A stretch of 64,000 bases of DNA from Albifimbria verrucaria (taxonomy: Eukaryota > Ascomycota > Sordariomycetes > Hypocreales > Stachybotryaceae): positions 202,765 to 266,764 of the forward strand of contig JAHREC010000023.1 in the NCBI GenBank assembly GCA_020081605.1. The letters are read 5' to 3'. The position numbers and the translations under genes were made by a program. Shown here one piece after another: positions 12,483 through 13,047 of the stretch. Position 1 is the first letter of the stretch. The number at the start of each line of letters is the position of its first letter. The notes beneath the pieces were generated by a model, which was not told the origin of the DNA, did no database searches, and saw only the letters and a list, made by a program, of their open reading frames with translations.

Positions 12483-13047
12483 TCATCTCGATCTGAAAGA
12501 CCTAGGAGAGCCAGTTGTTGTATGTTGTTGTTCTCCTCGAAGGCGACGAGCAAGTTGTATGTCTTTGCTCTGTATAGTGACTCTTTTAGCATGAATGGCG
12601 GCAAGATTTGTATCTTCAAAAAGTCCAACAAGGTATGACTCGACAGATTCCTGAAGGGACCCTATTGCAGACGACTGAAAGCGTAGGTCGCTCTTAAAGT
12701 CACGAGCGATTTCGCGAACCTTCCATGAGAGTTTACGTATAAGCCCTGCTCCATTCACAATGTGGAGAGTAAAAACTTACAAGCCGCTGGAATGGGAGCT
12801 TGCGTATCAAAAGCTCAGTAGACCTCTGGTAACGACGAATCTCGCGAAGAGCCACCGTACCTGGTTTATATCGCCTAGCCTTCTTCACGGGCCAATTTTT
12901 ATTGCGAGCTGAGAAACAGAGTGTATATCAGCAGATGTTAGGTGGCTTTGAGGATTATGGGAGATATTTACGAGCTTTAGAAGCTAGTCGTTTGCGTGGA
13001 GCTTTGCCGCCGGCACTTTTTCGAGCAGTTTGCTTTGTGCGAGCCAT
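12483..13047 (-). CDS. Divergent histone H3 variant
   Basis: Three exons, 13047-12972, 12908-12781 and 12719-12483, are separated by introns of 63 and 61 nt with GTAAAT...CAG and GTAAGT...AAG borders; the phases join exactly to give 146 residues. The protein starts [20 protein letters not shown] and keeps the full histone fold ([67 protein letters not shown]). It differs from canonical H3 in telling ways. T11 is Ala and Q19 is Arg. The K27 region is replaced by [12 protein letters not shown] with a 3-residue deletion, so K27 is lost. K56 is Arg. C110 is Ala, and a 13-residue Ser/Arg-rich extension follows RRLRGE. K4, K9, K14, K18, K23, K36 and K79 are kept. It is not CENP-A-like. It lies between two MITE-like elements and next to a SET-domain gene. 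Confidence 0.92.

Follow-up and report, generated by a model that had tools for sequence, protein, structure and literature searches.

A predicted histone H3 variant lacking the ARKS/K27 site, carried in several copies on small accessory-like contigs of Albifimbria verrucaria

The window (the whole stretch of 64,000 nucleotides of the Albifimbria verrucaria genome analysed here) carries on its minus strand a gene for a histone H3 variant, which we call v1 and whose start codon lies at 13047 and stop codon ends at 12483. The gene has three exons, all on that strand: exon 1 (12972..13047, 76 nt) encodes 25 residues and the first base of the next codon; exon 2 (12781..12908, 128 nt) encodes an altered 12-residue segment around K27, the start of the histone fold and a K56R replacement; and exon 3 (12483..12719, 237 nt) encodes the remaining fold and a C-terminal tail of 15 residues. 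They are separated by introns of 63 nt (12909..12971, GTAAAT...CTAAC...CAG) and 61 nt (12720..12780, GTAAGT...AAG), and the spliced translation is an intact H3 of 146 residues. An initial annotation had proposed an intact three-exon H3 gene at 12483-13047, and the start codon, the stop codon and the splicing show these limits to be exact. The spliced protein matches the Histone family (PF00125) with 143.7 bits over residues 7-129, against a cut-off of 26.4, and its top relative of solved structure is Histone H3 (218 bits).

Intron 1 interrupts the codon that follows ASKA, and intron 2 separates the L and V codons of QRL/VREIA; the genome's canonical H3 gene has both introns at identical positions and in identical phases, which means that v1 descends at the DNA level from an ordinary fungal H3 gene and is no reverse-transcribed copy. 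The intron-2 acceptor of v1 is weak, ending in AAG, compared with CAG in the canonical gene. Over 125 aligned codons the two proteins differ by 11 replacements, namely T11A, Q19R, A25P, P38A, H39R, K56R, Q76R, A91S, S102G, C110A and, in the alignment used, K27N. The segment between R26 and V35 is 9 nt (three residues) shorter in v1, and the 15-residue tail, which follows RGE, reaches 13 residues beyond the canonical end. The N-terminal tail begins as in canonical H3 and contains K4 and K9, with Ala in place of T11; K14, K18, K23, K36, K37, K64 and K79 are also kept. Comparison with the canonical H3 of this genome confirms what had been read from the letters alone on these points, that is, the changes at T11 and K56, the three-residue shortening, the C-terminal extension and the retention of K4, K9 and K36.

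The description of v1 as lacking K27 stands only in part. The ARKSA of canonical H3 corresponds to PRNKN in v1 whether aligned by HMMER or by BLAST (in fuller context, A-R-K-S-A-P becomes P-R-N-K-N-W-P), so that neither alignment retains the A-R-K-S site, but a lysine persists one residue further on. HMMER places K27 opposite an N of v1; BLAST places a gap opposite that N in 157 of 197 H3-family rows and K opposite the next residue in 171 of the 197, these rows being all H3-family proteins among the matches listed by two v1 protein searches, non-independent and including fragments and double-H3 proteins. The predicted protein is better described as lacking the ARKS/K27 site, the absence of K27 as such being alignment-dependent. 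Because PRC2-type enzymes recognise the residues surrounding K27, we infer that the K27 methylation site of v1 is very probably dead. K56R is rare: position 56 is K in 193 of the same 197 rows, R in two and a gap in two. Ser at position 91, as in v1, occurs in none of the 144 rows counted there, and Ala at position 11 is absent from the residues listed there. Core PRC2-type genes were found on contigs C15 (CXC+SET, EZH2-type) and C13 (VEFS box), as was a single KAT11/Rtt109-type gene on C41; both sites lost from v1 thus have candidate writers in this genome, and their loss could matter.

A profile search of the genome contigs with the Histone family returned at least 29 rows, of which 18 are H3-type rows on contigs of 150-302 kb and 11 lie on large contigs. 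The canonical H3 gene is on the 1.65 Mb contig C13 (three rows), and a divergently oriented H4 gene lies about 1.7 kb from it; a second H4 gene lies on C8; H2A, H2B and an H2A.Z-like gene lie on C6 together with one further Histone row; and CENP-A (C41:1569952-1570343, locus L011, two rows) shares its contig with an NF-Y-like row. All H2A, H2B and H4 rows found are on large contigs, none of the five H4 rows being on a small one. The v1 rows, by contrast with this core set, are confined to C9, C17, C18, C19 (the contig of the window) and C37, which measure 150-267 kb, and the divergent H3-H4 pairing of the canonical type is absent there, v1 adjoining a SET-domain gene instead. The canonical H3 gene (L023, C13:1618000-1622500) is the only one found and has two single-base gaps in the assembly, which we therefore read as assembly errors; since such base errors apparently occur, frame breaks in neighbouring genes call for caution.

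The proposal that v1 is an additional H3, distinct from both the ordinary copy and CENP-A, holds up against these separate canonical and centromeric genes. Identity with the ordinary H3 copy was rejected on account of the canonical gene beside H4 on C13, and identity with CENP-A on account of the separate gene on C41, a tree that places CENP-A outside, and a v1 fold without length change. The CENP-A of this genome, like v1, is a paralogue within the H3 family, and the position of the intron that follows the first fold segment is common to both genes; CENP-A has, however, a loop-1 insertion and a divergent N-terminal tail, whereas v1 has a canonical loop 1 and a canonical start of the N-terminal tail.

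Further H3-type genes lie elsewhere in the assembly. Family v2 (C31, C34 and C37; L009, L010 and L016) has an H3-like fold with K56 kept and a long tail that is partly acidic and in which no K4, K9 or K27 context can be recognised, and its C37 copy has a frame break. Family v3 (C12, C17, C18 and C19; L019-L022) is strongly diverged and lies about 4.5 kb from the start of C17-C19; no complete N-terminal tail was found at its loci on these four contigs. A fourth, very diverged H3-like gene (C15:4825569-4825745, L025, 28.6 bits), whose translations show RRYKPG in the tail and, further on, RATVTPSD, may be a fourth H3-type family or a relic; its contig, C15, measures 6.87 Mb, which shows that odd H3s also occur outside the small contigs.

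The five v1 copies differ at 12 columns over 4.2 kb, none of them inside the H3 gene. Random base errors in v1 are unlikely, since five assembled copies are identical across the gene, although a systematic assembly error could be present. The 10-kb left flank of the four other copies is 99.1-100% identical to that of C19, and the right flank, compared for C9 and C37, is 99.99% identical in C9 and 99.2-99.6% in C37, there in two pieces. Telomere repeats are present at the start of C9 and C12. C9, C17, C18 and C19 share their end point to the base, and the starts of C17-C19 are alike too, which reflects either large near-identical segments or an assembly-graph effect.

It is very improbable, in our estimate, that the compartment is an artefact, with the small contigs derived from a contaminating fungus or the copies representing one locus assembled repeatedly. 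The single-base gaps of the assembly, two of them in its single canonical H3, and the shared ends of four contigs would fit such an artefact, as would C9 and C19, which differ only twice over some 23 kb and may be duplicate assemblies of a single locus. A contaminant, however, would have brought its own H3, H4, H2A, H2B and CENP-A, and a single core set was found (the counts being lower bounds), which disfavours contamination; repeated assembly of one locus is at odds with C17, C18 and C37, which are distinguishable copies: compared with C19, their 10-kb left flanks show 16, 21 and 64 mismatches, respectively, as well as gaps.

In composition, the 25 small-contig loci have GC contents of 42.8-50.4% (weighted 45.9%) and the 13 large-contig loci 46.2-54.6% (weighted 51.7%), ranges that overlap; the SET loci form the high-GC end of the small-contig loci, and the H3-like gene at C15:4825569 lies in the lowest-GC large-contig locus. 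RIP indices of the window are similar to those of five core stretches. Within these overlapping GC ranges, v1 was found on small, compositionally distinct contigs and was absent from large ones.

The gene upstream of v1 on the same strand (13818..14790, minus) encodes a SET domain. Its SET piece (13818-14237) matches PF00856 with 56.3 bits and has as closest solved relatives SETD2 (6.6e-11) and then ASH1L (1.8e-9); the ORF upstream of this piece (14194-14790) has no Pfam match. A post-SET-like motif, CLCGSKNC, is seen in the translation, and an upstream cysteine-rich stretch lies in another frame of the assembly. The frame breaks near 14210, where the copies on C9, C17, C18 and C19 are identical, and this break is either real or an assembly error. 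SET rows adjoin v1 also on C9, C17, C18 and, in shorter form, C37, so that every v1 copy has one. Ten of the 24 SET rows are on small contigs: five beside v1, three EZH2-like, one on C23 (an AWS+SET gene close to SETD2) and one on C27. The EZH2/KMT6-like CXC+SET genes on C1, C2 and C26 (L047, L048 and L051:390-1325) exist besides the core gene on C15; the C26 copy has both domains in a single open frame and matches EZH2/PRC2 chains at 1e-38, while in C1 and C2 the domains are split between frames. These genes may be relics, or they may act in silencing the core or in competition among accessory chromosomes. Beyond what had been noted initially, v1 is multi-copy, is found only on small contigs, and shares that compartment with other H3 families and histone methyltransferase genes.

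A JmjC-like gene on the plus strand of the window (35864..37186; PF08007, 18.5 bits, below the cut-off of 22), with 17 relatives in scattered ascomycetes (best 50% identity), is a possible further member of this set of chromatin genes. No PF02373 JmjC row was found on small contigs, the five rows lying on C41, C10, C15, C4 (at base 1.3 million) and C36. Elsewhere in the window are an exon of terpene synthase family 2 (24122-24790; PF19086, 68.9 bits), which may belong to a small metabolite cluster; a 127-nt unit in three tandem copies (9951-10330), mostly within the ORF at 9597-10253; an open DDE_3 transposase-like frame with a weak HTH_23 match (47824-48819); a MADS-box (SRF-TF) gene (54778-55272); and a weak BEN-domain match below cut-off (46580-47761).

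Comparison of v1 with canonical H3 over the 125 codons gives a pS of 0.81, which is saturated, and a pN of 0.075; their ratio is 0.093 (bootstrap 0.050-0.147), an average that spans both branches. Saturated synonymous change with few replacements indicates that the coding sequence was constrained for most of its history, and neutral drift over the whole history, for which a dN/dS near 1 had been named as the sign, does not fit this ratio. From V35 onward the two genes differ by 15 replacement and 59 synonymous nucleotide changes; neutrality predicts about three replacements for each synonymous change, and the branch leading to v1 could therefore be neutral only if it held about five of the 59 synonymous differences. 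GC3 is 0.39 in v1, 0.82 in canonical H3 and 0.45-0.51 in nine other ORFs of the window, and the low value in v1 suggests that many of the synonymous changes occurred on its side, an effect that a low-GC3 donor gene could mimic. The intact frame is by itself weak evidence, because 35.5% of neutral simulations (substitutions only) also reach 21 replacements without a stop. The five changes in the fold are conservative (P 0.058, only suggestive), and the tail has a higher density of changes than the fold (P 0.088). Judged from these substitution patterns, reading v1 as a neutral pseudogene is not favoured.

The same data bear on the possibility that v1 is a passenger, namely an old H3 duplicate carried along on large segmental duplications, long constrained and now decaying or silent. 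The 10-kb flank was copied with v1 at high identity in all four other copies, so that the copy number of v1 needs no selection on v1 itself; the frame survives in a fair share of the neutral simulations; intron 2 has a weak acceptor; and v2 and v3, the related families, show greater divergence, with one v2 copy frame-broken. Set against this are the 15 replacement and 59 synonymous differences, of which a neutral branch could hold so few, and a GC3 contrast suggesting many more synonymous changes on the v1 branch, with the same proviso about its donor. We regard the passenger explanation as possible although doubtful.

As to ancestry, v1 has VESYLV, as do Colletotrichum, Xylariales and Stylonectria rows and one row labelled Marchantia, while the rows of Monilinia, Golovinomyces, Blastomyces, Ophidiomyces, Kluyveromyces and Wickerhamomyces have VEAYLV; this motif suggests a Sordariomycete-type origin. 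For the genome as a whole, the ITS agrees with Stachybotryaceae, and C10 carries a bilirubin oxidase gene whose pieces are each 93-99% identical to the Myrothecium (now Albifimbria) verrucaria enzyme; one translated exon also matches bilirubin oxidase chains in the PDB. In the tree, v1 groups with the H3s (fork 85/88, not starred), with v2, v3 and CENP-A outside, and the tree gives no further resolution of its place among fungal H3s. No close relative of v1 appears among the best 120 of 7991 and the best 120 of 7604 protein matches, which are mainly ordinary H3s and double-H3 proteins; since only these best matches were listed, diverged orthologues may be hidden.

We hypothesize that v1 is a functional H3 paralogue of an accessory compartment that cannot be marked by Polycomb, a reading to which we assign a probability of roughly 0.4. 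The protein would be expressed, pair with H4 and enter nucleosomes, which would receive neither K27 methylation by Kmt6/PRC2 nor K56 acetylation and would dilute H3K27me3; such a K27-blind H3 could help the accessory chromosome encoding it to persist or to stay transcribed, the targeting of v1 to its own chromosome being the least certain step. Fungal accessory chromosomes are often described as rich in H3K27me3 (PMC13066641, PMC13059725), although the latter source also indicates that not every one is. In Zymoseptoria tritici, loss of H3K27me3 is reported to have made accessory chromosomes more stable (PMC6510446), and a K27-blind H3 would on that ground be expected to aid its chromosome. A simple account in which v1 serves to avoid K27me3 fits poorly, since EZH2-like genes also lie on small contigs. 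We consider it quite improbable that accessory chromosomes here carry a private chromatin kit, made up of v1 (K27-blind, K56R and newly tailed), H3-types with other tails, the adjoining K36-type SET enzyme and the EZH2-like enzyme elsewhere in the compartment, which would set them apart from the core, limit Polycomb marking and lower their loss, as a selfish chromosome with its own histone code.

The nearest precedent comes from Metarhizium, where Habig et al. (PMC10687773, PMC12774646) describe a transferred chromosome that carries two putative histones together with several enzymes that modify histones, and suggest that these play a part in the transfer. M. robertsii and M. guizhouense are likewise hypocrealean fungi with H3 homologues and histone-modifying genes on an accessory chromosome; they are different fungi, however, and their H3 homologues could be compared by description only, without the K27 site. 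This case lends weight to an alternative in which the H3 and methyltransferase genes of A. verrucaria would supply chromatin in a new nucleus after horizontal transfer, the K27 change being incidental, and the presence here too of H3 types, EZH2-like and AWS/SET genes on small contigs agrees with it. It leaves the loss of ARKS and K56 unexplained, however, and no H4 was found on small contigs, so we hold this alternative to be unlikely. In Fusarium oxysporum Fol4287, the accessory genes KMT6B/C are described as H3K27 methyltransferases (PMC12774646) and parallel the EZH2-like genes on C1, C2 and C26; there the accessory genes encode a writer, whereas v1 would be an altered substrate.

The phrase 'new biology' used in the initial annotation was too strong, as accessory H3 homologues in Metarhizium, a variant H3 in Candida and plant H3s without K27 have all been reported. 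A literature search for accessory-chromosome or filamentous-fungal H3 variants yielded nothing closer than the Metarhizium, Candida, plant and Fusarium cases, and among the papers it listed none was found to describe an H3 with an altered K27 site encoded by a fungal accessory chromosome, the Metarhizium H3 sequences being outside its reach. The Candida variant H3V-CTG is a second non-centromeric ascomycete H3 made beside canonical H3, and is reported to differ from it at positions 31, 32 and 80 only (PMC6703697); v1, in contrast, combines its 11 replacements with a deletion and a tail and is not confined to those positions, and it lies on small accessory-like contigs, whereas the available text of PMC6703697 does not describe H3V-CTG as accessory-chromosomal. 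In Arabidopsis, H3.15 is stated to lack K27 and is wound-induced, and H3.10 is sperm-specific (PMC9797984); both are linked to evading or reprogramming K27 trimethylation, as proposed here for v1, although they are plant genes of independent origin. The A. verrucaria gene thereby poses a testable question, namely whether accessory chromosomes encode their own chromatin for silencing, stability or transfer, and, should our reading prove true, v1 would be a fungal, possibly selfish, counterpart of the K27-less H3 variant of plants.
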